Assembly: GCA_001829495.1 (NCBI GenBank)
Contig: MIBJ01000004.1
Location: 30,990-94,989, forward strand
DNA length: 64,000 bases
From: Spirochaetes bacterium RBG_16_49_21
Lineage (GTDB): Bacteria; Spirochaetota; UBA4802; UBA5550
Direction: 5' to 3'
Under the pieces are notes generated by a model, which was not told where the DNA came from, did not search any database, and saw only the letters and a program-made list of their open reading frames with translations. Positions 21,356-45,244 of this stretch are shown piece after piece. Positions within the stretch are counted from its first letter, which is position 1; every line of letters begins with the position of its first letter. The position numbers were made by a program, and so were the translations under genes.

Positions 21356-22003
21356 CTAATCAAGCCGCTCCGCCTCGATCAAGTCAAGCTCAAGCGAATA
21401 CCGGAGCAGGCCGTATCCGGTAAGCTCGATCCGGCCGGGGATCCCGTCATGGCGCAGCTTTTTAAACGCAACAAGACGCATCAGGTTCAGGGACGCGTCA
21501 TACGCGCGGATTTCCACGCTGCCGTCGTCCTTCATCAATGCCTCCGTGACTCCCCCGTCGGAGCGATACCTGCACACCGGGCCTTCCCCGGAAGAGCCAG
21601 TCTCGGCCGCTTCCCCTCCGGGCCTAAACAGCATGAGGCTGATATCGCGGATCACTCCCTTCACAAAGCTCTCGGATTCGAAGGGGCCGATGCCGCGCTT
21701 TATTACAAGCGCTCCGTCATAGTCCGCGTCCAGAAACACAAAACCCTCGATCGACATGAGGATGCAACGGATTCCGCCGCCCTGAGGGGAGGCGACGGAC
21801 ACGCCGATCATGGAGGCGTTCGCTCCGCCGGGGAGCGTACCGCTGATCAAGTGAACAAGGCGCCATCTGTTTTTCAGAAACGGGGCCTCGCACCTTTTAA
21901 TAATCCGCTCCTTTTCCGCGGAGCTTACGGGAGTTATTTTCAAAATTCCGGCGCAGGCTATTAAGGCCGGAAGCATCAAAAGAAGGAAAGCCGCTCTCAT
22001 CAT
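21356..22003 (-). CDS. Outer-membrane-type lipoprotein of the lipid cluster
   Basis: A 215-residue protein with a signal peptide ending in a lipobox (LIAC, Cys17). The mature part is beta-rich with no recognised catalytic motif. In aryl-polyene clusters a lipoprotein of similar size (DUF3261) is encoded beside the LolA-like gene. Order and size here match, but I cannot confirm the family by eye. Its start overlaps the LolA-like stop (ATGA), so the two are coupled. Probably it helps place the acyl product at the outer membrane. Confidence 0.65.
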   Translation of the reverse strand: MMRAAFLLLMLPALIACAGILKITPVSSAEKERIIKRCEAPFLKNRWRLVHLISGTLPGGANASMIGVSVASPQGGGIRCILMSIEGFVFLDADYDGALVIKRGIGPFESESFVKGVIRDISLMLFRPGGEAAETGSSGEGPVCRYRSDGGVTEALMKDDGSVEIRAYDASLNLMRLVAFKKLRHDGIPGRIELTGYGLLRYSLELDLIEAERLD

Positions 22004-22614
22004 ACGCCTAAAAAAAGGGAATCCGGAATCCGGGCGTTTAACTTCACTCTGCTGAAATCCAGGAGCGTGTACGATTTTTTGCTTTCATAGATCAGAACGG
22101 ACCGGATCACCCCCGGCTTGTTCGACAGCCTCAGCTCAATGCGCTGGATGATATCCGCGACCGACTTGTCCCGCGGCGTGAGGATAATAACTCTTCCCGG
22201 CTTGAGCTCAGGGATGAATCCCGGATTCGCGTTGAAGTCACCCTTCATCCATTGGACGATGTCAGAGAGGACTACCTGCATGGCCTGCATCCCGGCTGAC
22301 GAATCCTGCATGATTGTGTCCCCCTTTTTGATATAGCGCTTCACCGATCCGTCGTGCATGAGGAGAATGCTTCGAACGGGCGAGGTGTATTCCCACCGGA
22401 GCGATTTCGGGGCCTGGAAATAGAACGTGCCCCGTGAGATCAGGGGCCGTGACAATATTTCCATATGCTTTTCCTGAACGAACCGGGCCTCAACCGAACT
22501 GATCGTGCCGGCCCCTTTTTTAATCTGGTCCCAGGTATCGCCCCAGCCGATGAATGCTGCGGATAAAAAGACAATAGAAATGAGTCTTCCGAGTTTGCGT
22601 ATTATGTTGTTCAT
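22000..22614 (-). CDS. LolA-like periplasmic lipid/lipoprotein carrier
   Basis: A 204-residue exported protein of the LolA fold: 'VEARFVQEKHMEILSRPLISRGTFYF' (landmarks VEARFVQEK and SRGTFYF) followed by 'LRWEYTSP' are family signatures. LolA-like proteins carry lipoproteins or hydrophobic products across the periplasm. Cluster-specific copies are typical of aryl-polyene clusters. It overlaps the FabG start by one base and the lipoprotein by four, forming a tight four-gene run with the dehydratase. Confidence 0.85.
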   Translation of the reverse strand: MNNIIRKLGRLISIVFLSAAFIGWGDTWDQIKKGAGTISSVEARFVQEKHMEILSRPLISRGTFYFQAPKSLRWEYTSPVRSILLMHDGSVKRYIKKGDTIMQDSSAGMQAMQVVLSDIVQWMKGDFNANPGFIPELKPGRVIILTPRDKSVADIIQRIELRLSNKPGVIRSVLIYESKKSYTLLDFSRVKLNARIPDSLFLGV

Positions 22615-23351
22615 TACATCATCCCGCCGTTCACCGATATCACCTGGCCGGTGATATACGAGGCGTCGTCCGAGCAGAGGAACCGCACCACCGCAGCGAC
22701 CTCCTCAGGCTTTCCTATTCTGCCCATGGGAATGATGTTTGTGATCATCTCCACCGGAGCGTCCTTGATCATGTCGGTCTCGATCAGCCCCGGGGCCACG
22801 ACGTTGATCCGGATCCCCTTTTTCGCCACTTCCGAGGCTATGGAGCGGCTTGCGCCGATAAGTCCCGCCTTGGCAGCGGCGTAGTTCGCCTGGCCCTTGT
22901 TCCCGATAAGCCCGGCCACGGATGAGATGGATACGATCGAGCCCTTCTTCTGCCGGAGCATCCTTTTCAGAACCGGCTTGGTCATATTGTAAAATCCCTT
23001 GAGCGTGGTGCCGATGACCGAATCCCACTCAGCCTCCGGCATCATGAGAAAGAGGTTGTCCGCGGTCACGCCTGCGTTGTTTATCAAGGCGTCGATCACG
23101 GGAAACCGCTTTACGATATCTTCCATTGCCCTTTCCGCCTCGGCGGTATCGGCCACATCGAATTTCACGGTCTCCCCATCGCCCCCCGCCGCCCTCACCC
23201 GTCCCAGGGTCTCGGCTGCCGCCTGATCATTTGATTTGTAGTTTATAATGACGTAATACTTTTCCCCGGCCAGCTCGACCGCGATAGCCCTCCCTATCCC
23301 CCTGCTTGCGCCGGTAACGATGGCTACCCTGTTGTCCGCGCCCTGAGTCAT
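22614..23351 (-). CDS. fabG: 3-oxoacyl-ACP reductase, FabG-like (cluster ketoreductase)
   Basis: Reduces the beta-keto group after each chain-extension round. The 245 residues are the standard length. 'TGASRGIG' is at 13-20, 'NNAG' at 91-94, and the catalytic set is Ser144, Tyr157 and Lys161 ('SSVAG', 'YAAAK'). The C-terminus 'SYITGQVISVNGGMM' is typical of FabG. The gap to the upstream dehydratase gene is 12 bases. Being inside the cluster, it is more likely the dedicated reductase than the housekeeping enzyme. Confidence 0.9.
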   Translation of the reverse strand: MTQGADNRVAIVTGASRGIGRAIAVELAGEKYYVIINYKSNDQAAAETLGRVRAAGGDGETVKFDVADTAEAERAMEDIVKRFPVIDALINNAGVTADNLFLMMPEAEWDSVIGTTLKGFYNMTKPVLKRMLRQKKGSIVSISSVAGLIGNKGQANYAAAKAGLIGASRSIASEVAKKGIRINVVAPGLIETDMIKDAPVEMITNIIPMGRIGKPEEVAAVVRFLCSDDASYITGQVISVNGGMM

Positions 23352-23363: not shown

Positions 23364-23804
23364 TTATTCATTCTCGGGACGGAAAACCTGAAGCACCATC
23401 TCTGCGATAGTCTCGTTTCCCAGCTTGGCGGTGCCGGCAATTTCCGCATATACCTCGTCGCTCCTCCGTTCCTCGACCATCGTCACGATCCTCGCCTGAA
23501 GGGGAATTTTGTCCTTTAAAAATTCAGCGCTCTTGATGCCCACGAGCCATCCCCGTCCCGCCTTTGCTTTTTTCCCCTTCCGCTGTTCATGCCAGCCGAA
23601 GCTGACGCCGGCAGTCTGCGCCGCAAGCTCTATCAAAATGATCGGGCTGGCATATCCATCTTCAACAAGCGGCCAATCCGGCGAAACGGTCGCAGAGGTA
23701 ATGCAATGATTATCGTCGATCTCAACAATCTCATCCAGGAGCTTCATGCTGTTCCGGTGAGGAATCAGATTCTCAATGTCGATATTAATCTCCCGCATGT
23801 TCAA
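23364..23804 (-). CDS. Hot-dog 3-hydroxyacyl-ACP dehydratase, ApeP-like
   Basis: A 146-residue hot-dog protein beginning 'LIPHRNSMKLLDEI', with 'IILIELAAQTAGVSFG' as the central helix. It resembles the ApeP-type dehydratase subunit of aryl-polyene clusters rather than FabZ. The usual FabZ 'GHFP' motif is absent, so catalysis, if any, may need a partner (in APE systems ApeP works with ApeI; the second dehydratase here is at 28800). It is the first gene of the left, minus-strand arm and faces a divergent ACP gene across a repeat. Confidence 0.78.
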   Translation of the reverse strand: MNMREINIDIENLIPHRNSMKLLDEIVEIDDNHCITSATVSPDWPLVEDGYASPIILIELAAQTAGVSFGWHEQRKGKKAKAGRGWLVGIKSAEFLKDKIPLQARIVTMVEERRSDEVYAEIAGTAKLGNETIAEMVLQVFRPENE

Positions 23805-24096: not shown

Positions 24097-24354
24097 ATGG
24101 AAGAGCTGATCGCTGAATTAAAGGAAAAGATCATCGCGACCCTTGATTTGATAGACGTCACGCCGCAAGACATCAATGAGGATGACCGCCTCGTGGGCGG
24201 AAAGCTGGGAATCGATTCCATCGATGTGCTGGAGCTTGTCATGATGATTGATAAGGATTATTCGGTTAAAATCGACAGCAAAGAGCTCGGTGAAAAAATT
24301 TTCGCTTCGCTCAGAACACTCGCGGAATACATCCACAAAAGCCGCACGGGGTGA
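24097..24354 (+). CDS. Acyl carrier protein 1
   Basis: An 85-residue acidic carrier protein with 'LGIDSIDVLEL'. Ser41 is the phosphopantetheine attachment site. It would carry the growing chain for the adjacent ketosynthases. It belongs to the cluster-type ACPs seen with aryl-polyene genes rather than the canonical fatty-acid ACP (the usual 'LGADSLD' is 'LGIDSID'). The TGA stop overlaps the GTG start of the ketosynthase fusion. Confidence 0.92.
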   Translation: MEELIAELKEKIIATLDLIDVTPQDINEDDRLVGGKLGIDSIDVLELVMMIDKDYSVKIDSKELGEKIFASLRTLAEYIHKSRTG

Positions 24355-26534
24355 TCCTGTTGAACGGCACGCGGGTCTTTATTACCGGAATGGGAATCAT
24401 AAGCTCTCTCGGACAGGGAACGGGCCGCCATCTGGAATCACTGCAAAAAAACCGTTCCGGCATAAAACCGCTTACCCTGTTCACGCCGTCGCCGGGAAAT
24501 TCCTTCCCCGCCGGGGAAGTCCCCGGCTTCAGCCAAACCATGGCCGTACCCCGAACGCATGAGCTCGCGCTCCTGGCCGCCCGGGAGGCGCTTTCAGGAA
24601 CCGGCGCCGTTCCTGATTCAATCATCATTGGGACGACCACCGGCGGCATGCCGGTGACCGAAGAGCTGTTAAAGAAGAATGTGCCGGACCCGGACCAGTA
24701 CCGGTATCATTCGACCGCATCCGTGGCGGAATTCCTTGCCGCCGTTCTGCGCTGCACCGGGATGGTGCTCACCATCACCACCGCGTGCTCGTCAGGGGCG
24801 GCTGCGATCAAGCTTGCGTACGAGCTGATACGCTCGGGCAAGGCCGGACGCGTTCTCGCCGGCGGAGCGGACGCGCTCTGCAGGCTCACCTATTACGGGT
24901 TCAACTCCCTGCAGCTCATTGATCCGGCCGGAGCCCGGCCTTTTGACCGGGAGAGAAAGGGAATGACCGTTGCCGAGGGCTCGGCCATGCTCCTCCTTGA
25001 AGGAGGGGAATCAGTGCCTGACTGCGCCGTTGTGGAAATCCTGGGCGGAGGACTTTCCTGCGACGCGTACCATCCGGCAACCCCGCATCCGGAGGGAAAG
25101 GGAGCGCTTGCGGCAATGAGGAAGGCCCTCCAGAGTGCGGGTATTTCTCCCCGGGAGGTCGGCTATATCAATCTTCACGGGACCGGGACCAGGGACAACG
25201 ATCTTGCAGAAGCGAGGGCCCTGAATTCCCTCTTTGGGAACGCGATGCCCCTCCTGTCATCGGTGAAGGGCGCCTTCGGCCACTCCCTCGCCGCAGCGGG
25301 CGCGATCGAGGCTGTGGTCTGCGCCGCGGCCGTCAGGGAAGGGCTGATCCCGGCAAATACCGGGTGCGCTGATCCGGATCCGGAATTAAACCTGAAGCCG
25401 GTTCTCACCCCCCGTGCCGAAAAGGCAGCCGTCGTCCTGTCCAACTCCTTCGGCTTCGGCGGCAACAATGCATGCCTGGTGCTCGCGGATCCGGCCGCGA
25501 AGCGTGAAAAGCCGGTCCCCGTCGAACCGTCCGGATTTGAAATATTGGGAAGCGCCTGCATCACCGGCGCGGGAGACACGGACCAGACTTTGCGGAAATT
25601 AACTGTAGACAAAACCTGTAGCGGAATCCTGCCGCTTGCGGATATATCGAAAGATCTTCCTGCCCGCGAGGTGCGCCGGCTGAAAAGGCTGCCGCGGCTT
25701 GCGCTTGCCCTGGCAATGGAAGCGCGCAAAATCTCAAACCATGATCAAACCCCGTCATCCGTCTTTTTCGGCACATCATGGGGCCCCCTGTCCGAAACAT
25801 ACGATTTCCTCACCCGGCTGTATGCATCAAACGAGCAGTTCACGAGCCCGACGGAATTCGTCGGCTCGGTTCACAACGCTCCGGCCGGACAGGCGGCCAT
25901 CATGCTCGGGGCAGACGGAGCGAACCTTACCCTTACCGGCGGCGACTATTCCTTTGAGCAGGCCCTGATCGCCGCCACCCTGACGGCGGCCGACGGCGGC
26001 ACCGCGCTCGTCATGGCAGCCGACGAGTTTCATGAGACGCTATCTCCATTGTTCGATGCATCCGTACGGCTGAGCCGGGTACCGTCCGACGGCGGAGGCG
26101 CGCTCGTGCTGCGAAAACCAGCAGGCGGATCACGGCCACGGATAAGGCCGGTCTTCTTCGAAAATTCCGTCAACAATCCATCCATACTGCAATCGCTTGT
26201 TCAGAGCCTGGGAGGTACGGAAGAGATCAGCGCCCGGTACGGCGCCCTGTTCGCCGGAATGCCGATGAAAGATCGGGACGCCTGCGAAAAACAGCTCGGC
26301 GAAATTATTAAAGCCGCTGAATTCAGAGCCCCGGCCGTCGATTTCCGGAGATTTACCGGCGAATACGGGTCCGCAACCGCGACTGCAGTCGCTCTGGCGG
26401 CGGGGTTCGTGCGGGACGGGAATATCCCCTCCTCCATCACCGGCGGCGCGGAATGCCCCCTCGGCGGAAAAGGAATTTTGATCCTGGGGCTGGGAGGCTT
26501 TGTCACGGCCATTGAAATTCTAAATTGCCCGTAA
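24351..26534 (+). CDS. Ketosynthase fused to a chain-length-factor-like second half
   Basis: A 727-residue protein. Residues 1-385 are a complete FabF-type ketosynthase with Cys146 ('TACSSG'), His276 ('HGTGT') and Lys306/His311 ('SVKGAFGHS'), ending in 'NSFGFGGNN'. Residues about 395-727 are a second thiolase-fold half that lacks the catalytic triad: 'SVHNAPAG' (506-513) is the hallmark of the KS-like domain found as chain-length factor in aryl-polyene and coronafacic-type clusters (Ketoacyl-synt_2), and the nucleophile position reads 'TGGDYSF'. In known APE systems the two are separate proteins (ApeO and ApeC). The GTG start overlaps the ACP stop. The overlap and the intact frame argue for a real fusion, not a missed stop. 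Confidence 0.88.
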   Translation: MILLNGTRVFITGMGIISSLGQGTGRHLESLQKNRSGIKPLTLFTPSPGNSFPAGEVPGFSQTMAVPRTHELALLAAREALSGTGAVPDSIIIGTTTGGMPVTEELLKKNVPDPDQYRYHSTASVAEFLAAVLRCTGMVLTITTACSSGAAAIKLAYELIRSGKAGRVLAGGADALCRLTYYGFNSLQLIDPAGARPFDRERKGMTVAEGSAMLLLEGGESVPDCAVVEILGGGLSCDAYHPATPHPEGKGALAAMRKALQSAGISPREVGYINLHGTGTRDNDLAEARALNSLFGNAMPLLSSVKGAFGHSLAAAGAIEAVVCAAAVREGLIPANTGCADPDPELNLKPVLTPRAEKAAVVLSNSFGFGGNNACLVLADPAAKREKPVPVEPSGFEILGSACITGAGDTDQTLRKLTVDKTCSGILPLADISKDLPAREVRRLKRLPRLALALAMEARKISNHDQTPSSVFFGTSWGPLSETYDFLTRLYASNEQFTSPTEFVGSVHNAPAGQAAIMLGADGANLTLTGGDYSFEQALIAATLTAADGGTALVMAADEFHETLSPLFDASVRLSRVPSDGGGALVLRKPAGGSRPRIRPVFFENSVNNPSILQSLVQSLGGTEEISARYGALFAGMPMKDRDACEKQLGEIIKAAEFRAPAVDFRRFTGEYGSATATAVALAAGFVRDGNIPSSITGGAECPLGGKGILILGLGGFVTAIEILNCP

Positions 26535-26559: not shown

Positions 26560-27906
26560 ATGAAAGTACTTCTCGTTTCAGCAAACAGGGTGCGGACCCC
26601 CTACTACGTATATCCTCTGGGGCTTGACTATGTGGCTTCAGCGATATCGGGCAGACACCAGGTGAAAATAACGGACATCAATTCCCGCGAAAAAGCCCGG
26701 TCCATCATCGATACGATCAGGGATTTTGCTCCTGATGTAATCGGCATATCCATCCGCAATATCGACAATGTGGATGCGCATGATGTCAAGAGCTTCATTA
26801 CATTCTACCGTGAACTCATCCTTGCCGTCAGGGAAATCACCGGAGCGGTCATCGTTGTCGGCGGAAGCGGGTTCACCATCTTCCCGGAGCGGATGATGCA
26901 GGCACTCGAGCCTGATTACGGCATCATCGGCGAAGGGGAGCGGATGTCCGTTTTTCTCGAAGCCCTTGAATCCGGGAAAGACCCGTCAGCCCTTTCCGGC
27001 GTTATCGCGCCCGGCATGAAGGAAGCCTTCCCCCCTCCCCTTGAGCTTCCCTTCACGAGAACCGTGACCCCGGAATCGGTTGCCGAATTTTACCTGTCCC
27101 GGGGCGGCATGCTCAACCTGCAGACAAAGCGGGGATGCACCTATAATTGCATCTACTGCACCTATCCCCACATCGAGGGAGCGGCCCTGCGGCTCATCCC
27201 CGCTGATGAGGTGGCCGGCACCGCCGTGAAACTGGAGCGCGCCGGCGCGAAATACCTCTTCATCACCGATTCCGTGTTTAACACCAGCTACGAGCACAGC
27301 GCAGATGTGGCCCGCGCCTTTGCTGCCAAGGGGCTTACTATCCCCTGGGGAGCTTTTTTCGCGCCGACAAAGCCTCCGGAAAACTACTACCGCGTGCTTC
27401 ACCGGGCCGGTCTGACCCACGCGGAATTCGGAACCGAGGCGCTGGCCGGCTCCATGCTCGCGTCATACCAAAAGCCCTTCAGCGTGGGTGATGTTTTCAC
27501 GGCCCACGCCGCAGCCCTGGATGCCGGGCTGTATGCGGCCCACTATATCCTCCTGGGAGGCCCGGGCGAGAACCGGCACACGGTAACTGAAACGCTCGAC
27601 AACGCAGAGCGGCTCGATAAAACCGTGATCTTTTTTTTCTGCGGCATCAGGATATACCCGCATACCAGAATTTATGAAATCGCCCGAGCTGAGGGTCAGA
27701 TAGCAGAGACCGACGATCTGCTGGAGCCGGTGTTCTACCAGTCCGGATCCATTTCCGGCGAGGAGATCATCTGCATGGTCGAGGAACGCGGCCGGAAGCA
27801 TGAAAACTGGTTCATCGGCTCAGGAGGGAATAAGGCTGCCCGGCTCGTTTCGCGCCTTCATAAACAGGGCCATAGCGGCCCCCTGTGGGAGCATATGATC
27901 AGATGA
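26560..27906 (+). CDS. B12-binding-type radical SAM enzyme 1
   Basis: A 448-residue protein. Residues 1-150 have the Rossmann-like layout of a cobalamin-binding domain ('LLVSANRV', 'DVIGISI', 'VVGGSGFTIFPE', 'YGIIGEGE'), but the DxHxxG histidine is missing ('ITDINSRE'), so cobalamin would bind without a His ligand. The radical SAM cluster is C193, C197, C200 ('CTYNCIYC'). 'LLGGPGE' is a later SAM-binding loop. Such enzymes do C-methylation, ring or bond rearrangements. Context points to the acyl chain as substrate. It is ATGA-coupled to the deacetylase-like gene. Confidence 0.88.
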   Translation: MKVLLVSANRVRTPYYVYPLGLDYVASAISGRHQVKITDINSREKARSIIDTIRDFAPDVIGISIRNIDNVDAHDVKSFITFYRELILAVREITGAVIVVGGSGFTIFPERMMQALEPDYGIIGEGERMSVFLEALESGKDPSALSGVIAPGMKEAFPPPLELPFTRTVTPESVAEFYLSRGGMLNLQTKRGCTYNCIYCTYPHIEGAALRLIPADEVAGTAVKLERAGAKYLFITDSVFNTSYEHSADVARAFAAKGLTIPWGAFFAPTKPPENYYRVLHRAGLTHAEFGTEALAGSMLASYQKPFSVGDVFTAHAAALDAGLYAAHYILLGGPGENRHTVTETLDNAERLDKTVIFFFCGIRIYPHTRIYEIARAEGQIAETDDLLEPVFYQSGSISGEEIICMVEERGRKHENWFIGSGGNKAARLVSRLHKQGHSGPLWEHMIR

Positions 27907-28703
27907 GAGAAGCCCCGCCAGCCATCCGATTGACGCCGGCGCTTCAGGCATGCATCGCAGCGTATCTGGCTGCAATGCTCCTGGCATTCGTAGACGTACG
28001 GCTCTCCGCCGTACCCCTGGCTCTGTTTCTGTTTCTTTGCATTGCCGCGCCCTTTTTTCCCGGATTCGGTTTTTATCTGCCGGTAATAAGCCGCGGGTGT
28101 TCCGGCAGGCGCGCCGTGGCCATAACCTTTGACGACGGCCCGGACCCGGTAACCACGCCCGCGCTCCTGGAACTCCTGAAAAGGCATGATGCCGCAGCCA
28201 CCTTTTTTATCATCGGCGGGCATGCCGCCGAGCACCGGAGCCTGGTGAAAAAAATTTTAAGCGACGGCCACACCATCGGAAATCATTCATACCACCACTC
28301 ACCGCTCTTAATGCTCAGATCCCTTTCCCATCTCCGCGCCGAGATCCGGAGCACGCAGGCATTATTATCGGAATTCAGCGTCTCTTCCCTCGCCTTCAGG
28401 CCGCCGGTCGGGATAACGAGCCCGCGGCTCGGACCGGTCCTCGCAGAAGCGGGATTAATATGCGTGAACTTCAGCTGCCGCGGATTCGACGCAGGAAACA
28501 GGCGCATCAGCCGGCTTTCGGGAAAAATACTGCGCCGGGTCAAACCGGATGACATAATACTGCTGCACGACCGCGCGCCGAAAAGTTCGGTTGACCTCGG
28601 TAAATTTCTCAATGAGGTGGAATTGATCCTTGTCGGATTGAATGATAAGGGGCTCGAAATCATCCCCCTTTCGGAAATCATCGGCCGACCGATAACCAAA
28701 TGA
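27903..28703 (+). CDS. Membrane-anchored polysaccharide-deacetylase-like (NodB/CE4) protein
   Basis: A 266-residue protein. Two helices near residues 13-33 and 38-55 anchor a NodB-homology domain with 'TFDDGPDP' (catalytic Asp and metal Asp), 'NHSYHHS' (metal His pair) and 'FRPPVG'. Late 'ILLHDRA' holds the final catalytic His. This set is complete, so deacetylation or de-N-acetylation of a sugar-containing molecule is plausible. The ATG at 27903 overlaps the radical SAM stop. I infer a glycan or amide-bearing substrate, perhaps the headgroup of the cluster's lipid. Confidence 0.83.
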   Translation: MREAPPAIRLTPALQACIAAYLAAMLLAFVDVRLSAVPLALFLFLCIAAPFFPGFGFYLPVISRGCSGRRAVAITFDDGPDPVTTPALLELLKRHDAAATFFIIGGHAAEHRSLVKKILSDGHTIGNHSYHHSPLLMLRSLSHLRAEIRSTQALLSEFSVSSLAFRPPVGITSPRLGPVLAEAGLICVNFSCRGFDAGNRRISRLSGKILRRVKPDDIILLHDRAPKSSVDLGKFLNEVELILVGLNDKGLEIIPLSEIIGRPITK

Positions 28704-28799: not shown

Positions 28800-29195
28800 A
28801 TGAATAAAGAATGGCATTCTTTAAAAAACCTGAGAGTAACTGAGACCCCGGAGATTTCAGCCGAGGCGACCATTAAACCGGATTCATCATGGTTTGACGG
28901 TCATTTCCCCGGGTTCCCGATCCTGCCGGGAATCGCACAGCTCGGCATCGTTTCTGATTTGATCAGAATGGCCGCGGCAAACAAGGGAAAAACCATATCC
29001 ATTTCCCAAATATGGAAAGTGCGCTTCAGGCAATTTATCAGGCCGAACGACACGGTGAGCGTGGTAACGTCGCCCGACAAACATGATCCGAATACATACC
29101 GATTCAAGCTGCTGGTTAAGGGTCAGATAGCATGCAACGGAGTGATGGCAACCGGCGCCGCCGATGATGAAATTACGACCAAGGAGCACGGTTGA
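28800..29195 (+). CDS. FabZ/ApeI-like hot-dog dehydratase
   Basis: A 131-residue hot-dog protein with the catalytic 'FDGHFPGFPILPGIAQLG' motif (His in GHFP). This is the pattern of FabZ and of ApeI, the active dehydratase of aryl-polyene clusters. It would dehydrate 3-hydroxyacyl-ACP to the 2-enoyl form, and with no enoyl reductase in the cluster repeated action would leave conjugated double bonds. The 96-base gap upstream contains TTGACA at 28721-28726 but no clear -10. ACP2 follows after 12 bases. Confidence 0.88.
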   Translation: MNKEWHSLKNLRVTETPEISAEATIKPDSSWFDGHFPGFPILPGIAQLGIVSDLIRMAAANKGKTISISQIWKVRFRQFIRPNDTVSVVTSPDKHDPNTYRFKLLVKGQIACNGVMATGAADDEITTKEHG

Positions 29196-29207: not shown

Positions 29208-29465
29208 ATGCCGGATAAAAAAACAATACTCCGCGTGGCGGAGATTCTGATCGATGAGCTGAAACTTGAAGATATTACGCCGGAAACCTTTAACCCGGAT
29301 CTCGATCTGGTCGACGAGCTGGGAATCGACAGCATGGATCTGACCACCGTGGTACTTGTTCTTCAGGATGAGTACGGCATAACCATTGATGAGGAGGATT
29401 ATCCGAAACTGTCGAATGTCACATTAATCGCGGAATATATCGAAGAAAAGTTGAAGGAAAAATAA
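29208..29465 (+). CDS. Acyl carrier protein 2
   Basis: An 85-residue acidic ACP with 'LGIDSMDL'; Ser42 carries the phosphopantetheine. It has a good ribosome site (GAGGA at 29193-29197). It differs clearly from ACP1, as the two ACPs do in aryl-polyene clusters, where they serve loading and elongation. The position just before the two radical SAM genes makes it a candidate carrier for a radically modified intermediate, but this is inference. Confidence 0.92.
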   Translation: MPDKKTILRVAEILIDELKLEDITPETFNPDLDLVDELGIDSMDLTTVVLVLQDEYGITIDEEDYPKLSNVTLIAEYIEEKLKEK

Positions 29466-29529: not shown

Positions 29530-30624
29530 GTGAACGTTAAACACGCGAAAACCATTGCCGCAAAAAAAAACGAGGACGGCAATAAAATTAAATTCTCGGA
29601 TATCATCAAGGACCCGGCGATACGTGAGCGATGGGAAAAGGTCCGCAAATTCTTCTTTCTCCGGGAATCGACCTACGATATGACCAACCGTTGCAACATC
29701 AGATGCGACGGCTGCTATTATTATGAGGGTGAGAAGCAATTCGCCAAGGAAAACGGGACGCCGGAACAGTGGCGCTCGCTCGTAAAAAGCGAGAGGGAGC
29801 GGGGAATCACCTATGTGGTCCTGGCCGGAGCCGAGCCGTCTCTGGTCCCCCGGCTTTGCCAGGTATGCTTCGAGGAGATCCCGCTCGGCTGCATCGCCTC
29901 CAATGGATTCAAGCGCATTCCTGAATCGGTGGGGTATAAGATCCACATCTCCGTATGGGGAAACGACGAAACCAGCCTGCGGGTTCGGAACGCTAAGCAT
30001 CTGCTGGAAAAACAGATCCGGAATTACGCAGGGGACCCCCGCGCGGTGTTCGTGTATACCTTCACCAGGGAAAATATCAATGAGATATACGACATCATGG
30101 AAGTCCTGTCAAAGCAGGACGGGAAAATTACTTTTAACACCTTTTCAGCCCCGGTCGGATACACGGGCAAGCTCCGCCATGACCGGCAATCGCTCTCTTT
30201 GACGAGAAAAACGATGATGGATATCTTGATAAAATATCCCGATAATGTCCTTTTTTCGCCATATAATGTGGTGGCCCACACCCATTCCAGCAGCCTGCAT
30301 GAATTGTACGGCTGCTCATACCCCCGGATGAACCCGTCCACGGACATCGGTCTCGGAAGATCGTTTCGGCAGTACCGGACCGACCTTTCATGGGACCGGA
30401 GCGCCTCCTGCTGCGTGCCCGACACCGACTGCGCTGACTGCCGCCACTATGCTGCCGGAAGCGCGGTGGTGACCGCCAGGCTCTACCGTCACGCGACCGA
30501 TGCCGAGAGCTTCAAGGCCTGGCTTGACTATGTCGACACCTACCTTGCGGTATGGGTCATGGGCTATGAAAAGGGGGAAAGCCTCCTGGATCATATGACG
30601 CCTCCGCCTGAATTCGCGCTATAG
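29530..30624 (+). CDS. Radical SAM enzyme with C-terminal Cys cluster (paralogue A)
   Basis: A 364-residue protein. The SAM-binding cluster is C55, C59, C62 ('CNIRCDGC'). The usual 'GGE' is altered to 'AGAEP'. A C-terminal Cys group, 'CC-x6-C-x2-C' near residues 298-308 with another Cys in 'YGCSYP', suggests a SPASM/twitch-type auxiliary iron-sulfur cluster. It starts with GTG and is preceded by AAGAGG. The next gene is a diverged paralogue sharing the same Cys plan. Function unknown: such pairs commonly dehydrogenate or link C-H positions. The cluster context suggests an ACP-bound chain. Confidence 0.85.
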   Translation: MNVKHAKTIAAKKNEDGNKIKFSDIIKDPAIRERWEKVRKFFFLRESTYDMTNRCNIRCDGCYYYEGEKQFAKENGTPEQWRSLVKSERERGITYVVLAGAEPSLVPRLCQVCFEEIPLGCIASNGFKRIPESVGYKIHISVWGNDETSLRVRNAKHLLEKQIRNYAGDPRAVFVYTFTRENINEIYDIMEVLSKQDGKITFNTFSAPVGYTGKLRHDRQSLSLTRKTMMDILIKYPDNVLFSPYNVVAHTHSSSLHELYGCSYPRMNPSTDIGLGRSFRQYRTDLSWDRSASCCVPDTDCADCRHYAAGSAVVTARLYRHATDAESFKAWLDYVDTYLAVWVMGYEKGESLLDHMTPPPEFAL

Positions 30625-30647
30625 TTCCAATCAAAGAGGAGAATACC

Positions 30648-31646
30648 ATGAATACCGTCAGTTCAATGCTGGATAATGAATGGCATGAACGATACAGGCA
30701 GATATCAAAGCTCAATATCCGGAGCTCGATATACGATGTGACCAACAAATGCAATCTCCGGTGCAAGGGCTGCTTCTTTTTCTCCTCCGACGAGCATAAG
30801 AAATCCCCGGACGAACCAGACATTCGGAAATGGGAGGAGTTCGTCGACCGGGAGAAGGCCCGCGGAGTCAATCTCGCCATTCTTATAGGCGGAGAGCCGA
30901 CCCTGTTCCTTGACCGGGTCGAGGCCTTCTACAGGCGCCTCCCCACCTACTGCGCCACCAACGGCATCATCAAGGTGCCGCGGGAACGCTTCCCCGACTT
31001 GATGGTCGGCATATCGCTCTGGGGGGACGAAGAGGACGAGAAAACGCTCAGGGGACGCGACACCTTCTCCATTTCGCGGAAAAACTACGAGGGTGATCCC
31101 TACACCTACTATCTGTATACCATTACGCCGAAGCAGATCGGAAAGATAGAGCGAATCATTAAAAAAATCGCGGATGTCGGCCTCAAAGTTCACATGCAGC
31201 TCTTGTCCAATGACGAAGGGGTCGACGGATTTTCATGGAAGCATGAGGAGCTGCTGGATTTAAGGAAGGAGATGGACGAGGTGCTGGATAAATATCCGGA
31301 CACCGTGATCTCCTCGAAATATTACCACCAGATAATAACCACCGGCACCATGCTCGGCAGGCCCTTCGGCTGGATGGAGTGCCCGTCGGTGACCAAGCCG
31401 CTCGACAACCGCAAGCCGGAGCCTAAGCGGCTGATTGAATTCATCAGATGGGCCGCGGATCTGAAGACCATGCACCGCTGCTGCACCTCCGAGACGCGCG
31501 AATGCTCCACCTGCAAGGACGGAGCCGCGCACATGAGCTGGGTCATGGTCAACAAGCGGGCCCACATGCGCTCCCCCAAGGACCTCCAGAACTGGATAGA
31601 GGTCTACGAGATGTTCGCCAAGCTGTATAAGTTCATACCGTGGTAG
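30648..31646 (+). CDS. Radical SAM enzyme with C-terminal Cys cluster (paralogue B)
   Basis: A 332-residue protein and paralogue of the preceding one: both contain 'YD.TN.CN.RC.GC' at the front. Cluster Cys are C35, C39, C42. 'IGGEPTL' keeps the normal GGE. C-terminal 'RCCTSETRECSTC' repeats the CC-x6-C-x2-C plan, and a further Cys is in 'MECPSV'. It has a strong ribosome site (AGAGGAG, eight bases before ATG). It ends six bases before ketosynthase 2. Paralogue A with a changed GGE and B with a normal one could mean one active and one regulatory partner, or two distinct reactions. Confidence 0.87.
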   Translation: MNTVSSMLDNEWHERYRQISKLNIRSSIYDVTNKCNLRCKGCFFFSSDEHKKSPDEPDIRKWEEFVDREKARGVNLAILIGGEPTLFLDRVEAFYRRLPTYCATNGIIKVPRERFPDLMVGISLWGDEEDEKTLRGRDTFSISRKNYEGDPYTYYLYTITPKQIGKIERIIKKIADVGLKVHMQLLSNDEGVDGFSWKHEELLDLRKEMDEVLDKYPDTVISSKYYHQIITTGTMLGRPFGWMECPSVTKPLDNRKPEPKRLIEFIRWAADLKTMHRCCTSETRECSTCKDGAAHMSWVMVNKRAHMRSPKDLQNWIEVYEMFAKLYKFIPW

Positions 31647-31652
31647 TACGCC

Positions 31653-32894
31653 GTGCATAAAGCAGTAATAATCGGATACGACACCGTGTCCCCTCTGGGC
31701 ACGGACATGCACACGCAGTGGGAGCGCGCCGTTTCCGGCGAAAGCGGCATAGGAAGGCTCACCAGGTTTTCTTTTAACGAAGATTTCCCGGTTCATATAG
31801 CGGGCCAGGTCGGCGAGATCGACGCGGGCCCCTATCCCTTCCTCTCTCCCCGCGAGATGGCGCATTGGATCTCGCCGATCTTCAAGCACGCGATGCTTGT
31901 GGCGCACCGTGCTCTGGAAAGAAGCGGAATTGAAATAACGCCGGATCTCGCCCCGCGCGTGGGCGTGACCTTCAGCTCCGCCGTGGGAGGCCTGGACGCG
32001 GTCATCGCCGCCGACCGGCTCATGATAAAAGAAAATAAATTGCCTCACCCCTTCACGAATCCGAATTCGTGCATCAATATGGTCGGCGGCAAGGTCTCCA
32101 TCCTTACCGGGGCGACCGGCCCGATAAGTGCGACCATCACCGCATGCGCCACCGGGGCGACGTCCATGATCATAGGCTCCCTGTTCCTGAACCAGGGTCT
32201 GGCGGACGCGGTCATCTGCGGGGCAGTGGATTTTCCCCTGGTTGAGCCTATTGTGGCGGGCTTCGCATCCATGAACGGCGCGTATAAACATAAAAAGGAC
32301 CAGCCCGAGCAGCCTGAACAAGCGAGCCGACCTTTCTCCGTAAACAGAAGAGGGTTTGTCGTTTCAGAAGGAGCGGCAGGCGTGATCATCTGCACCCGGG
32401 AGTTCGCCGAGGCGCACGGCCTGAAGTTTCAAATAGAGATCGCCGGCTACGGCATGACCTCGGACGCGCGCCATTTTGTAGCGCCAAACCTCGACACCGT
32501 CACCCGCTGCATTGCGGAGAGCATTTCCGACGCCGGCATACGGCCTTCAGACATAGCTGCGGTCAACGCACACGGCACCTCGACCAAAATCGGCGACAAG
32601 GTCGAGTTCGACGCCCTCAATACTATTTTCGGGGGGAAGATACCGCCGGTGTCCGCGAACAAATCCCAGATCGGACATGCCATGGGCGCTTCAAGCGGCA
32701 TCGAGTCGATATTCGCCATGGAAGGGATGCTCAAGAACAGACTGCTCCCGACTATAAATTATACGCCGGATCCTGAGATCGGGCTCGACTGCGTGTCAGA
32801 GGGAGCGCGCAGCCTTGAACAGGAATTCGTGCTTAAAAACGCGTTCGGCTTCGGCGGGTGCAATTCATGCATCGTGTTCCGGCGGGTGGGGTAA
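31653..32894 (+). CDS. Ketosynthase 2, FabF-like
   Basis: Beta-ketoacyl-ACP synthase of 413 residues. Catalytic set: Cys165 ('TACATG'), His307 ('HGTST') and Lys337/His342 ('NKSQIGHAMG'). 'FGFGGCN' near the end is the usual glycine loop. It is closely related to ketosynthase 3 (41252), with the same 'LPTINYTPDPE' and 'NKSQIGH' blocks, and less to the KS fusion. GTG start, six bases after the radical SAM gene. A cluster-specific elongation or priming role is likely. Confidence 0.92.
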   Translation: MHKAVIIGYDTVSPLGTDMHTQWERAVSGESGIGRLTRFSFNEDFPVHIAGQVGEIDAGPYPFLSPREMAHWISPIFKHAMLVAHRALERSGIEITPDLAPRVGVTFSSAVGGLDAVIAADRLMIKENKLPHPFTNPNSCINMVGGKVSILTGATGPISATITACATGATSMIIGSLFLNQGLADAVICGAVDFPLVEPIVAGFASMNGAYKHKKDQPEQPEQASRPFSVNRRGFVVSEGAAGVIICTREFAEAHGLKFQIEIAGYGMTSDARHFVAPNLDTVTRCIAESISDAGIRPSDIAAVNAHGTSTKIGDKVEFDALNTIFGGKIPPVSANKSQIGHAMGASSGIESIFAMEGMLKNRLLPTINYTPDPEIGLDCVSEGARSLEQEFVLKNAFGFGGCNSCIVFRRVG

Positions 32895-32905
32895 CCGGGA
32901 TTATA

Positions 32906-33703: not shown

Positions 33704-33866
33704 GCCGATACCTCGTATAAAATAGTTCTACAGATTTAAAATAGCCCGGGCTGAGATTCTTTCTTCCTGCAATTCACCTAACATTCTCCGATACGTAGTC
33801 ACATAAAACAACGTATGTCAATAAGCTTTTTTTCGTAAGAAGGCGGAATTTTCCGAAGGGAGGTAA

Positions 33867-33907
33867 TAAAAAGAAAAGGGGCTAAACAAAAAATCGCTTT
33901 AGCCCCT
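33867..33907 (-). terminator. Intrinsic terminator of the glycerol ABC operon
   Basis: AGGGGCTAAA (33877-33886) and TTTAGCCCCT (33898-33907) form a perfect ten-pair stem. Read on the minus strand the stem is followed by TTTTCTTTTT. It lies 114 bases past the end of glpV, so it closes the minus-strand operon. Confidence 0.85.
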
Positions 33908-33926
33908 CAGAAGCTTAACATACTAT

Positions 33927-33997
33927 TATGCGCTCCGGCAAAGACTCTTATATAGTATAACCCCCAATCACGCAGGAAATACCGGCCGGAGCGCATA
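33927..33997. repeat. 13-base inverted repeat next to the glp operon end
   Basis: TATGCGCTCCGGC (33927-33939) and GCCGGAGCGCATA (33985-33997) are perfect complements. They flank 45 bases that include ATATAGTATA. This is between the glpV stop and the terminator, and could be a transcript-end hairpin or a small element scar. The rest of 33704-34020 shows nothing else. Confidence 0.5.
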
Positions 33998-34020
33998 CCG
34001 GATGCCAATCCCCGGGAAAG

Positions 34021-35772: not shown

Positions 35773-35889
35773 TGTTGCTCCCTCCTTATTTTAAATTTAT
35801 TCGATTCAGGAACGTGCTGCCCCTCTTTCAAAGCCCGTACATCCCGCATCATTTGAATTTCAGCCCAGCCGGGAAAAGCATCGCGCCGG

Positions 35890-36168: not shown

Positions 36169-36184
36169 TGCCGTTCCTCTTTTT

Positions 36185-37857: not shown

Positions 37858-37870
37858 CACATCTCCCCTG

Positions 37871-40056: not shown

Positions 40057-40106
40057 TATTGCTCCTAGCATTGTAAATCTATCGATGGAATATTCTTAAC
40101 TGATAG

Positions 40107-40990: not shown

Positions 40991-41065
40991 TGCCAGCCTC
41001 CTTTCAACGATGCTAATCATTGTTGCTGAAACCGAAATATAAGTCAAGACTATAACTCAGCATAA

Positions 41066-41251: not shown

Positions 41252-42517
41252 ATGAGAGCACCAAAAAACAGACGCGTCTTTGTAATCGGATACGGCGCCG
41301 CAACGCCGCTCGGGGCAACGTTCGAAAAATCGTGGGAGCGGGCTGTCCGGGGTGAAGCAGGGTTCAGGAAGGTAACCCGCTGCCGGGTCCGGACCGCATG
41401 CGACGTCGTGGGCGAGATACCGGACTGGGACCCGCGCTCCCTTGATTTCGCCGACAAAAAGGAGATATACAACTGGAGTGCTGATTTCGTGCTCCTCACC
41501 ATGGCGGTCTGCCAGGAGGCGCTCCGGGACGCGGGCCTTGAAATCGATACGGAGACCGGGCCGAGAACCGCCTGCCTCATCGGCTCCGCCCTTAACGGCT
41601 CCGATGCGTACCGGAAGGCAATGGACAACTACCTCACCAGAGGCCCGCTGAAAGTGAGCCCCTACCTTCTGCCCAACCTGTGCGCGAACCTCCCCTCGGG
41701 CAAGGCGGGGATGCTCCTGGGATTCACCGGGCCCATCTTCTCACCCGAGGGGGCGTGCGCCTCGGGCAATCACGCCATAGGAATCGGCGGCCGCATGATA
41801 CGGGACGGCGACGTGGACTTCGTGCTTGCCGGCGGGGTGGACACCTGCATCATACCCGAGATCATTCACGGGTTCGAGAACATGAACGCCACGATCAAGA
41901 TCAGGCCGGGCGACCGGGCGTTCACCGCTCCGTCCCGGGCTTCGCGTCCGTTCAGCATAGACCGGAAAGGCTTCGTTCTTTCAGAGGGGGCCGGAGTCGT
42001 CGTTCTGGCGGCGGATGAAATGATTACGGCGTACGGGCTCAAGCCAAGGGCGGAGCTTCTCGGCATCGGGTGGAACTCCGACGCCTTCCACATAACCAGG
42101 CCCAATAAGGATACCATCATCATCGCTATCCGCATGGCCATTGAAGACGCGGGGCTAAAGCCTTCCGACATCCAGTACGTCAACGCGCACGGCACCTCAA
42201 CCCTAAAAGGCGATTCGACCGAGATCGAGTGCCTCAAGGCCGTGTTCGGGAAAGACATGGAGAATATCCCGGTGTCGTCAAATAAATCGCAGATCGGACA
42301 TACGATCGGCGCGGCAGCCGCCATAGAGGCTGCCTTCGCCATTGAGGGGATGCGGCGGGGAATCATCCTCCCCACGGTAAACTACATCCCGGACCCGGAG
42401 CTTGCGGGCGTGGACGTCGTTCCCGACAAGGCCCGCAGCCAGAGCCATGAGATCGTTCTTTCCAATGCATTCGGCTTCGGCGGCACAAACTGCTGCGCCG
42501 TGTTCAGGGGCGTGTGA
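41252..42517 (+). CDS. Ketosynthase 3, FabF-like
   Basis: A 421-residue beta-ketoacyl synthase. Cys169 is in 'GACASG', His313 in 'HGTST', Lys345/His350 in 'NKSQIGH', and 'FGFGGTN' is at the end. It is most like ketosynthase 2. It opens the second plus-strand arm of the lipid cluster. No clear ribosome site precedes the ATG. Its TGA stop shares a base with the thioesterase start. With three ketosynthases and one dead KS-like half, priming, elongation and branch roles may be divided among them. Confidence 0.92.
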   Translation: MRAPKNRRVFVIGYGAATPLGATFEKSWERAVRGEAGFRKVTRCRVRTACDVVGEIPDWDPRSLDFADKKEIYNWSADFVLLTMAVCQEALRDAGLEIDTETGPRTACLIGSALNGSDAYRKAMDNYLTRGPLKVSPYLLPNLCANLPSGKAGMLLGFTGPIFSPEGACASGNHAIGIGGRMIRDGDVDFVLAGGVDTCIIPEIIHGFENMNATIKIRPGDRAFTAPSRASRPFSIDRKGFVLSEGAGVVVLAADEMITAYGLKPRAELLGIGWNSDAFHITRPNKDTIIIAIRMAIEDAGLKPSDIQYVNAHGTSTLKGDSTEIECLKAVFGKDMENIPVSSNKSQIGHTIGAAAAIEAAFAIEGMRRGIILPTVNYIPDPELAGVDVVPDKARSQSHEIVLSNAFGFGGTNCCAVFRGV

Positions 42518-42996
42518 TGAAGCCGAAGCCCTTCAGGCCGGAGCCGTACGGCAACGACGGACGATACGTCCGCGATACCACAAGCGGCGAGATTTGGCAC
42601 CGGTGCCAGTACCGGACTCTGTACGCGGACACAGACCGGTCCGAGGTCGTGTATCATTCCAATTATCTCAGATATTTTGAATTCGGCAGGACCTCGCTCA
42701 TGCGGGATACCGCCTATCCCTACCGGGAGATCGAGAAAAGCGGGTACGTCTACCCGATCATCGATCTCGGCATCACCTTTTACAAGCCGCTCTATTACGA
42801 CGATCTGATATGGATACACACCCGGCCCATCGAGCTTGAGCGGGTGAAGCTCACGTTCGACTATATCATCACCCTTGCCCAAACGGGCGATATGATCTGC
42901 CGCGGTTTCACCCGCCACTGCGCGCTCAACAAGAGGGGCATGCCGGTGGCTGTTGATGAAAAGACGGTCCACCTATGGAAAGCCTTTCCCAAATAA
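42517..42996 (+). CDS. YbgC/4-hydroxybenzoyl-CoA-type acyl thioesterase
   Basis: A 159-residue hot-dog thioesterase. 'YADTDRSEVVYHSNYLRYFE' (landmarks YADTD and VVYHSNYLRYFE) is the YbgC-type active-site segment, with the catalytic Asp in 'DTD'. Such enzymes release acyl groups from CoA or ACP, and one is usual in aryl-polyene clusters. The ATG at 42517 overlaps the ketosynthase 3 stop, and the gene's own end overlaps the next start by 22 bases. It probably trims or releases the chain. Confidence 0.88.
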   Translation: MKPKPFRPEPYGNDGRYVRDTTSGEIWHRCQYRTLYADTDRSEVVYHSNYLRYFEFGRTSLMRDTAYPYREIEKSGYVYPIIDLGITFYKPLYYDDLIWIHTRPIELERVKLTFDYIITLAQTGDMICRGFTRHCALNKRGMPVAVDEKTVHLWKAFPK

Positions 42997-44468
42997 TACC
43001 GGTCACCATTCCCGTGGCGGATTACCTCCGCGATCACGTGCACAACGAGCGGGCCGTTTTCCCGGCGGTCGAATCCATGGCCGTCCTTGCCCGGTCCTGC
43101 CTGCCGCTCCTGCACGGCTCCGCCGCGATCCGAATGGATCAAGCCGATTTTATTAAATTTCTGCAGATCGACCATGATGCCGCGCACATTGAAGCGCTCA
43201 ATGAAGTAACAAGGCTTGACAACGGCGCTGTTTCTTGCCGGCTCATTACGGTCCGAAAACAGGGAAAATCAGGCATCGTACGCCGGATTGAACACGCGTC
43301 GTGCATCTTAAACAAGAGCGCCGTTCCTCCGAAAGAACCGCCGCTCGACACTATCCTGGGCCTTGAAGGCGTGTGCATTCAATTGAGCATGAAACAGGTC
43401 TACAGCGAACTGATCCCCTTTAAATCCGCGTATCAAAACATCAATGAGCTCTTTGTCACGGACCAGGGCGCGATCGCGATCGTTGACGGGGGAACGGATA
43501 AGGCTCCTTCCGAACCGCTCGGTTCCCCGTTTCCCCTGGACGCCTCATTTCACGCTGCGTGCGTGTGGGGGCAGCGCTTTGCCGGCATTGTAGGGTTCCC
43601 GGTCCATATTGACCGGCGTATCATTATGCAAAAAACCAGGCCGTACCAGACCTATATAAGCAGAATAACGCCGGTCAAGGCCGGCCCGAGCCTGCTCATA
43701 TTCGATCTCTGGATCTACTCTATCGAAGGCAGGCTGTGCGAGGAAGTCCGGGGCCTGCACCTTAAAGACGTCAGCGGGAAAAAGCTCCTGCCGCCGGAGT
43801 GGATACGAAGCGGGAAGGACAAGAGGCTTGAATCCGTCAGGTCCGCATGCAGGGAGCTTTCCCTGATCGAGCTTGCGACCGTGACCAAGCCGTGCGAAGG
43901 GATATTGTCCCCTCCGGAAATGGAGCGGTTCAGAAGCATGCGTGAAAAGCGGGGCAAAAGCTTTGTCGCTGCGCGGCTTGCGCTGAAAAAGCTCTCGCGA
44001 GGGTCATCCGGAAGCGACATGACGGCGCCGGCGAGCTCGATTACGACCATAGAGCCGGACGGCAGGCCTGCATGTCCGGTCACCGGCGGCGAGGATACCC
44101 GGTGGTGCACCGCATCCCATGACGCGCGATTCGCGGTTGCGGCGGTATCCGATCGCCGGATCGGAATAGACGTGGAGGAAATATCAGGCCGCGTTCTCAA
44201 ATCGCAGCGCCTGTATATGCACGAGGAAGAGCTCCCTCTCGTGAAAAGCCACGCTCTCGGGGACCGGGAAGCCTCGGCCAGGGTGTGGAGCATAAAGGAG
44301 GCTGTGTCAAAAGCGGCAGGCATGAATCTTGCAGATGCGTGGCAGAGGACAAGGGTGAAGGAAATCGGCAGGGAAAAAAGCGTTATTCTGATCGATGATG
44401 AAACTCACGAGGCCATCCATGCTGTTGTGGACGGGCATATCTTTACTGTGATTGTGATGAAATCCTGA
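42975..44468 (+). CDS. Polyketide-type dehydratase fused to a phosphopantetheinyl transferase
   Basis: A 497-residue fusion. Residues about 10-270 look like a PKS double-hot-dog dehydratase: His21 lies in a HxxxGxxxxP-like motif in which Gly is Glu ('HVHNERAVFP'), and Asp189 in 'PLDASFHAA' fits the second catalytic residue. Residues about 340-497 are an Sfp-type phosphopantetheinyl transferase with 'RIGIDVEE' (Asp399, Glu401) and 'WSIKEAVSKAAG' (Lys441-Glu442). The transferase would activate the two cluster ACPs. I recall no named family with exactly this fusion outside large polyunsaturated-acid synthases, where the transferase is often C-terminal. Confidence 0.83.
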   Translation: MESLSQIIPVTIPVADYLRDHVHNERAVFPAVESMAVLARSCLPLLHGSAAIRMDQADFIKFLQIDHDAAHIEALNEVTRLDNGAVSCRLITVRKQGKSGIVRRIEHASCILNKSAVPPKEPPLDTILGLEGVCIQLSMKQVYSELIPFKSAYQNINELFVTDQGAIAIVDGGTDKAPSEPLGSPFPLDASFHAACVWGQRFAGIVGFPVHIDRRIIMQKTRPYQTYISRITPVKAGPSLLIFDLWIYSIEGRLCEEVRGLHLKDVSGKKLLPPEWIRSGKDKRLESVRSACRELSLIELATVTKPCEGILSPPEMERFRSMREKRGKSFVAARLALKKLSRGSSGSDMTAPASSITTIEPDGRPACPVTGGEDTRWCTASHDARFAVAAVSDRRIGIDVEEISGRVLKSQRLYMHEEELPLVKSHALGDREASARVWSIKEAVSKAAGMNLADAWQRTRVKEIGREKSVILIDDETHEAIHAVVDGHIFTVIVMKS

Positions 44469-44647: not shown

Positions 44648-45244
44648 ATGTATACTATGGAGCTCATTATATTGTTAATTTTTTCCTACCTTGCCGGCTC
44701 AGTTAACTTCTCCATTCTCCTCTTTAAGCTCCTGGGCAAAGAAGACCCGCGTACAAGCTTTTCCGGCAATGCAGGGGTAACCAACGTGTACCGACAGGCA
44801 GGCATGGTATGGGCGGCAGTCGTGCTTCTCCTGGACGTTGGCAGGGCGGCTGCAATTGCCCTGTTTGCAGAGCACTTTCTAACACCGGGCCAGGTACCGT
44901 GGCCGGGGCTTAGCCTCGTGATCGGGAATCGCTTTCCCTGCTTTCATCGGTTTAAGGGAGGCAAGGGGGTGGCGGCGTATCTCGGATTTTCCCTGCCGAT
45001 AACCCCCCTGGGCGCTGCCCTTTCCGCCCTTGCATGGGTGGCAATCTACCTGTTGAAGCGGACGCCTTTCATCGCTTCCTTCGCCATGATTTTTGTCCTG
45101 GGCCTGGGCATTATCGCTGGTTGTAGTTATAAGCCCGCGGCTATTGTCGGAACCATACTGACGGTACTTTTCATAATCTACGGCCATAATAAGAATATCA
45201 CGGAATTCATCCGGAAAATTCCAAGGAGTAATTCAAATGCATGA
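44648..45244 (+). CDS. plsY: PlsY-like acyl-phosphate:glycerol-3-phosphate acyltransferase
   Basis: A 198-residue membrane protein with about five helices. 'AGSVNFSILLFKLLGK', 'SGNAGVTNVYR' and 'GNRFPCFHRFKGGKGVA' (landmarks GNRFPCFHRF, GGKGVA) are the PlsY loops for glycerol-3-phosphate and acyl phosphate. PlsY transfers a fatty acyl group from acyl phosphate to position 1 of glycerol-3-phosphate. Whether this is the housekeeping PlsY or a cluster copy is not known. Its location suggests the cluster's chain may enter glycerolipids. A short ORF follows by an ATGA overlap. Confidence 0.88.
   Translation: MYTMELIILLIFSYLAGSVNFSILLFKLLGKEDPRTSFSGNAGVTNVYRQAGMVWAAVVLLLDVGRAAAIALFAEHFLTPGQVPWPGLSLVIGNRFPCFHRFKGGKGVAAYLGFSLPITPLGAALSALAWVAIYLLKRTPFIASFAMIFVLGLGIIAGCSYKPAAIVGTILTVLFIIYGHNKNITEFIRKIPRSNSNA

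Follow-up and report, generated by a model that had tools for sequence, protein, structure and literature searches.

Two adjacent genes for radical SAM proteins, here called A and B, lie between an acyl carrier protein (ACP) gene and a ketosynthase (KS) gene in a 64,000-nucleotide stretch of DNA (the window) from a Spirochaetes bacterium whose genome comprises 3.8 Mb in 83 contigs. The SAM motif of A is altered, which raises the question of whether the two proteins are both working enzymes and, if so, on what they act. An earlier note, made from the sequence alone, had proposed either two enzymes acting together or in sequence, or an active enzyme with a scaffold. Table 1 lists the features of the window that bear on this question.

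Table 1. Radical SAM proteins A and B and the surrounding lipid-related genes in the window.
Feature	Coordinates	Strand	Basis and residues
LolA-like protein	22000..22614	-	PF03548
FabG-like ketoreductase	22614..23351	-	PF13561
FabZ-like dehydratase	23364..23804	-	TIGR01750 2.4e-9, below cut-off
Acyl carrier protein ACP1	24097..24354	+	PF00550
Ketosynthase fused to second KS-like half	24351..26534	+	Pfam, active-site alignment
B12-binding radical SAM protein, ladderane-associated TIGR04072	26560..27906	+	392.7 bits versus cut-off 360
Polysaccharide deacetylase-family protein	27885..28703	+	PF01522
FabA/ApeI-like dehydratase DH2	28800..29195	+	PF07977, PF22818
Acyl carrier protein ACP2, DSM serine motif	29208..29465	+	PF00550
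Radical SAM protein A, 364 aa	29530..30624	+	ORF, PF04055, conservation, AF2 model; CX3CX2C C55/C59/C62; GAEP 100-103; C-terminal C262, C294, C295, C301, C304
Radical SAM protein B, 332 aa	30648..31646	+	ORF, PF04055, conservation, AF2 model; CX3CX2C C35/C39/C42; GGEP 81-84; C-terminal C245, C278, C279, C286, C289
FabF-like ketosynthase KS2, Cys-His-His intact	31653..32894	+	PF00109/PF02801, active-site alignment
FabF-like ketosynthase KS3	41252..42517	+	
Polyketide-type dehydratase fused to 4'-phosphopantetheinyl transferase	42975..44468	+	PF14765, PF01648
PlsY-like glycerol-3-phosphate acyltransferase	44648..45244	+	PF02660

The ORF calls agreed with the earlier note in placing A and then B as consecutive plus-strand genes, separated by 23 bp, and both proteins passed the Pfam cut-off for Radical_SAM (PF04055; 30.1 bits for A and 36.0 bits for B versus 29.5). 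Neither reached the cut-off of any model in the NCBIfam scan. Their reading as a paralogous pair was supported by 27% identity across 328 aligned residues, and the CX3CX2C motif is indeed common to both (CNIRCDGC in A, CNLRCKGC in B). The difference that had been described between the two motifs, AGAEP in A and GGEPT in B, is real, but its register was one residue off. When aligned, A-G-A-E-P stands against I-G-G-E-P, so that GAEP in A corresponds to GGEP in B, the second Gly alone is altered and the Glu and Pro are kept. The C-terminal plan thought to be shared, CC-x6-C-x2-C, holds for B, but in A it is CC-x5-C-x2-C; a further invariant Cys precedes the CC doublet by 31 residues in A and 32 in B.

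B was used to scan the GTDB species genomes, where 276 relatives were found, and the counts reported here rest on the best 80 of the 276, which were aligned with the window as row 81. By NCBI lineage, these 80 included 55 Thermodesulfobacteriota, 12 filed under Myxococcota (which are 'Deltaproteobacteria bacterium' records), 7 Spirochaetota, 1 Planctomycetota and 5 without a phylum. In all 80 loci A immediately precedes B on the same strand, with a median gap of 25.5 bp. GGEP was present in all 81 B rows and GAEP in all 75 A rows readable at the Ala column, the other six being cut or gapped. The three radical SAM cysteines were intact in 81/81 B rows and 74/74 readable A rows, and the five C-terminal cysteines in all 81 rows of each protein. 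Additionally, the Gly before the last Cys of CX3CX2C (G61 in A, G41 in B) was kept in at least 99% of rows for both proteins; excerpts of PMC6231123 give an aromatic residue at this position in SkfB. The retention of the pair in 80 of 80 related loci, together with the fixed motifs, indicates more than chance.

The pair is rare in the window's own phylum, where it was found in 10 of 392 genomes belonging to two families, and A was detected in 28 of 73 genomes of one Desulfobacterota family. Cultured carriers include Desulfosarcina widdelii, Desulfatitalea alkaliphila and Desulfogranum japonicum. Among 392 Planctomycetota genomes the pair was found in one, G392, where it lies on a contig of 5.8 kb. 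On the Planctomycetota MAG contig L055 (5811 bases; also L172) the gene order is B12 radical SAM-DH2-ACP2-A-B-KS2, with B 81% identical, and the presence of this cluster there reflects either transfer or mis-binning.

Whether A is a working enzyme was addressed through its evolution. Within or near the genus, dN/dS was 0.071-0.122 for A and 0.043-0.108 for B (seven of nine pairs, two with saturated dS having been dropped), figures that are rough because dS was near saturation in the remaining pairs as well. Within the genus, A evolved faster (dN 0.10-0.15 versus 0.05-0.08 for B). In a tree of 41 proteins, with a bootstrap that had yet to converge and a very long branch to the outgroup, A and B formed separate clades (99/98 each), and relatives from Planctomycetota grouped weakly with B (90/54). 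Since B, these relatives and the outgroup rows all have GGE, GAE is taken as the derived state. Gly precedes the Glu in 15 of 17 other radical SAM proteins of the genome (a script count, A left out, that covered 60 of 61 places and missed some motifs), and the exceptions elsewhere in the genome include NQEP and STEP. GGE is thus not strictly defining for radical SAM proteins, and both A and B have PF04055 over the cut-off, CX3CX2C in the readable rows and, in the models, a six-strand barrel.

The earlier note had allowed that homologues of A might have a normal GGE and the variation be neutral. None of the 75 readable A rows has GGE, and their uniform GAEP rules out neutral drift of the motif. 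The fixed motifs and cysteines, combined with dN/dS of about 0.04-0.12, indicate that A is a functional lineage and not a decaying copy. From these sequence comparisons, GAEP looks like the lineage mark of a working enzyme rather than a dead one, and the Gly-to-Ala change probably tunes SAM binding. The proposal that B is the catalyst and A, with its altered SAM motif, a non-catalytic partner could draw on the faster evolution of A and on the changed residue itself. However, a dead partner would be expected to drop ligands in some of the 81 rows, and A keeps its readable CX3CX2C cysteines, the Glu and Pro of the motif and all five C-terminal cysteines under purifying selection; NQEP and STEP in the same genome also count against reading the change as a loss. 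We consider the scaffold proposal very improbable. The other proposal, of two enzymes together or in sequence, is favored by two old clades that were never found apart in 80 loci.

AlphaFold2 models of A and B (pLDDT 85.7 and 90.0, from alignments of 50 and 49 sequences) predicted a six-strand barrel followed by a Cys-bearing loop and then helices, with pLDDT below 50 for the loop at residues 267-277 of A. A C-terminal Fe-S fold, the absence of which the earlier note took as refuting, is only partly borne out: a predicted Cys-bearing loop and helices follow the barrel in the models, which are of protein only. VIA-align, used as a second pass over the top 1000 of Foldseek, ranked SkfB (Z 17.8, rmsd 4.0, 241 residues) and BlsE (Z 17.5, rmsd 3.7, 262 residues) highest for A, and BlsE (Z 18.2, rmsd 3.6, 261 residues) and SkfB (Z 17.6, rmsd 3.7, 239 residues) highest for B, with anSME, viperin and SuiB close behind for both; these Z values are whole-protein scores driven by the barrel. 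The sequence profiles of A and B also matched SkfB through the barrel (1.3e-17 and 9e-19).

The C-terminal region alone had no Pfam or NCBIfam family and no credible PDB sequence match, its profiles giving weak unrelated matches (0.47 to 4.1 and 0.053 to 7.3), and Pfam at E <= 10 gave no match to this region of B or of the Planctomycetota relatives. With five C-terminal cysteines each, A and B do not have the seven-Cys motif of SPASM proteins, which goes with two auxiliary clusters. The twitch motif CX9-15GX4C with a further Cys was also not found in either protein: in A, a Gly stands at x11 after C262 but no Cys follows five residues on, and the next cysteines are 294-295 in A and 278-279 in B. 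SkfB has five conserved C-terminal cysteines and makes C-S bonds, according to the portion of PMC6231123 consulted. A and B are predicted to share with SkfB and BlsE, the nearest twitch proteins, a radical SAM barrel and a small, Cys-rich C-terminus, but they differ from both in the missing CX9-15GX4C, in the spacing of the CC doublet and Cx2C and in having no peptide-binding domain.

As the earlier note had observed, the pair adjoins an ACP and a ketosynthase: 64 bp separate the ACP from A, and 6 bp separate B from the ketosynthase, which is FabF-like. The plus-strand order is ACP1, the KS-KS-like fusion, the TIGR04072 protein, the deacetylase, DH2, ACP2, A, B and KS2. The second half of the fusion is without the catalytic Cys and both His and is chain-length-factor-like. 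KS3, the dehydratase/phosphopantetheinyl transferase fusion and the PlsY-like gene follow 8.4 kb past KS2, and the FabZ-, FabG- and LolA-like genes are on the opposite strand. Among the best 80 of the 276 relatives, 67 of 68 testable loci have ACP2 no more than 500 bp before A, 71 of 73 have KS2 as the gene following B, and 46 of 60 have a relative of the window's B12 radical SAM protein in the 5 kb that precede A. The cluster is built around a core of ACP-A-B-ketosynthase and, judging from the PlsY-like gene, its product may end up in a phospholipid.

Minus-strand genes, among them an SDR and an ABC transporter set, occupy the 8.4 kb between KS2 and KS3 (32894-41252); the KS2-KS3 spacing was below 1 kb in 61 of 64 measurable relatives, and 2.6 and 4.2 kb in two loci of the same genus. 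A second B12 radical SAM protein, HpnJ/BchE-like and below every cut-off, is encoded at 47778-49205 beside an AMP ligase and FabD on the minus strand. Elsewhere in the window, 8931-10867 contains two neighboring, near-alike genes that by eye are flagellin-like.

The combination of a TIGR04072 B12 radical SAM protein with KS, ACP, FabG- and FabZ-like genes points to a ladderane-associated type II fatty acid cluster. For comparison, cluster L190 of genome G680 was taken for the Kuenenia ladderane cluster, by gene order against the available parts of PMC2649909 and PMC4790861; its TIGR04072 protein scored 440 bits. The window shares with the anammox ladderane cluster (kuste3335-3352) KS paralogues, FabG, a polysaccharide deacetylase-like protein and TIGR04072, but where the window has A and B, the anammox cluster has a Kuste3343-like SPASM radical SAM protein. 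In L190 a canonical SPASM protein (70 NCBIfam matches) occupies the place expected for Kuste3343, and no A or B orthologue was found in G680 or in four further genomes of that sort. The window cluster is therefore a sibling of the anammox ladderane cluster rather than the same cluster.

We rejected A and B as orthologues of Kuste3342/3343, given the SPASM and TIGR04072 proteins at those places in L190; BLASTP of the SPASM protein against A and B was significant over no more than 58 and 94 residues, surrounding the radical SAM motif. HZS_alpha was likewise rejected as an anammox-only marker and used for support alone, as 77 of 392 genomes matched it, some in many copies, including G392 and G745. 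According to excerpts of PMC4790861, no protein was detected when kuste3342/3343 were expressed in E. coli, and 'ladderane' clusters with a product that is not known have been reported from Desulfobacterota and other non-anammox phyla in the part of PMC9902471 consulted.

A second setting for this family was found in Planctomycetota. Full-length relatives of B occur in 4 of 392 genomes (29-33% identity by BLAST, E 1e-58 to 1e-65), with the cysteine plan of A and B and the motif GGEPS, and in 4 of 4 the gene overlaps the end of LipS2, which itself follows LipS1 (NF053743 E ~1e-56; NF053742 221.5 to 233.7 bits versus 230). The profile scan covered LipS1 in three of these genomes, and in the remaining one LipS1 was read by eye. 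LipS2 was found in 10 of 392 Planctomycetota genomes, and in the other six there was no relative of B beside it within the 2.3-3.9 kb flanks examined. The loci with a third radical SAM protein after LipS1-LipS2 are L170:9632-12736, L303, L305, L306 and L307. Further genes at one locus with LipS1-LipS2 and a B relative encode a lipoate ligase, a GcvH-type carrier, DsrE and a ferredoxin domain, DsrE being part of the lipoate-linked sulfur-oxidation setting. Lipoate-linked sulfur oxidation has been described in such a gene setting (PMC10332631, consulted in part). No description of a third radical SAM protein after LipS1-LipS2 was found in the open-access literature.

Since LipS1 is also present, the B relative as a stand-in for LipS1 is ruled out; it is encoded in addition to LipS1 and LipS2 and so differs from the enzyme known to insert sulfur. 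The A/B family accompanies acyl chains on carriers in two settings that are unrelated, the ACP clusters and the LipS1-LipS2 loci. LipS1 and LipS2 resemble A and B as two radical SAM proteins that act in turn on an acyl chain on a carrier, which for A and B would be ACP2, and LipS1 also in an upstream Cys plus a CC doublet as auxiliary ligands (C230 and C276-C277, according to the accessible portion of PMC9585515). A and B differ from them in their C-terminus, in not being annotated, as LipS1/LipS2 were, as biotin synthases, and in belonging to fatty-acid clusters, where the gene scan showed no lipoate ligase; neither matched the LipS1/LipS2 models NF053742/NF053743 at E <= 0.001. Of the 392 Planctomycetota genomes, 21 have more distant B-like matches (E ~1e-13 to 1e-15), which were not counted as cluster members: in the three opened of the 21 they are lone genes of ~340 aa outside lipid clusters (e.g. 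L167:9705-10724), and the one protein scanned was nearest to PTO1314.

We hold it slightly better than even that A and B are an obligate pair of working radical SAM enzymes acting on an ACP2-bound acyl chain in a ladderane-associated type II fatty-acid/polyketide cluster. The operon shows their association with the ACP and KS genes rather than their substrate, which we infer. A and B would act in sequence or as a complex on the acyl chain held by the neighboring ACP2, before or between the KS2 and KS3 elongations. At its CX3CX2C cluster each would generate a 5'-deoxyadenosyl radical, which would take hydrogen from an unactivated chain carbon, while the putative C-terminal cluster (C-x31/32-CC-x5/6-C-x2-C) would catch, oxidise or supply what follows. 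The chemistry that we prefer for this pair, by analogy with LipS2 and LipS1, is the formation of C-S bonds at two positions, one per enzyme; this choice is tentative, and a double bond formed via electron loss would be the next choice. Paired C-H chemistry on ACP2-bound chains appears to be the best-supported reading, with C-S chemistry in the lead.

If A and B were instead anaerobic desaturases, they would take hydrogen and pass an electron to the C-terminal cluster, making double bonds without oxygen. A cluster rich in chain-building and dehydratase genes agrees with such a role, BtrN offers a twitch enzyme precedent for dehydrogenation (PMC6231123, in the excerpts seen), and the portion of PMC2649909 consulted reports C31:8 and C31:9 hydrocarbons in Desulfotalea psychrophila and an anaerobic PUFA route proposed by Rattray et al. 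for related clusters. The genes of that proposal (Kuste3343/DP1855 and Kuste3342/DP1853), however, are on our reading of the anammox locus SPASM and TIGR04072 proteins and not A or B, and we regard desaturation as unlikely, though a serious competitor. Were A and B to form C-C bonds in lipid chains, by way of a substrate-sulfur intermediate at the C-terminal cluster, they would be comparable to the tetraether synthase Tes (GDGT-MAS), which acts on unactivated lipid carbon and has a C-terminal auxiliary cluster (partial text of PMC9433317), a putative feature in A and B. Tes ranked second among the PDB sequence matches for both profiles, over the barrel half (5.6e-8 and 9.5e-7), and the structural alignment (Z 13.5 for A and 12.5 for B, rmsd 3.8, 229 residues) extended into its C-terminal cluster domain. 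Although by eye Tes has a stretch similar to F-x5-D-x6-CC of B, this scored -0.6 bits, Tes was absent at E <= 10 from the matches of the C-terminal-only profiles, and NF045702 hit the barrel alone (23.9 and 28.5 bits versus a cut-off of 450). Sequence support for a Tes-type C-terminal domain was not significant, and the extra N-terminal iron domains of Tes are absent from A and B, which leaves C-C coupling distinctly improbable.

The nearest folds also include the peptide maturases SkfB, SuiB and anSME, so that A and B might modify a peptide or another target and their fatty-acid neighborhood be incidental. The chance of this is slight, the lowest that we assign: the barrel begins at ~45 in A and ~26 in B, neither protein has an N-terminal domain for binding peptides like that of SkfB, and the ACP and KS genes adjoin the pair almost without exception. 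Returning to the obligate pair, a bolder and rather unlikely extension is that A and B form a split sulfur-inserting or sulfur-mediated ring-forming enzyme that edits the acyl chain as it grows on ACP, so that anaerobic bacteria would make thiolated or cyclised membrane lipids of an undescribed class.

No description of the A-B pair was found in the open-access literature. The databases and that literature, which leaves out most subscription papers, are consistent with the earlier statement that no characterised enzyme in a lipid cluster has this exact plan. A and B are a real, undescribed pair of enzymes in anaerobic bacteria. The biosynthesis of ladderanes is unsolved, and this conserved paired module provides a testable handle on the products of non-anammox clusters, which occur with the pair in the cultured Desulfosarcina, Desulfatitalea and Desulfogranum species named above. 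The link to LipS1-LipS2 suggests that the A/B family works on carrier-bound acyl chains and, if the split sulfur-inserting or ring-forming reading is true, it would show how ladderane-type clusters outside the anammox bacteria build unusual chains.
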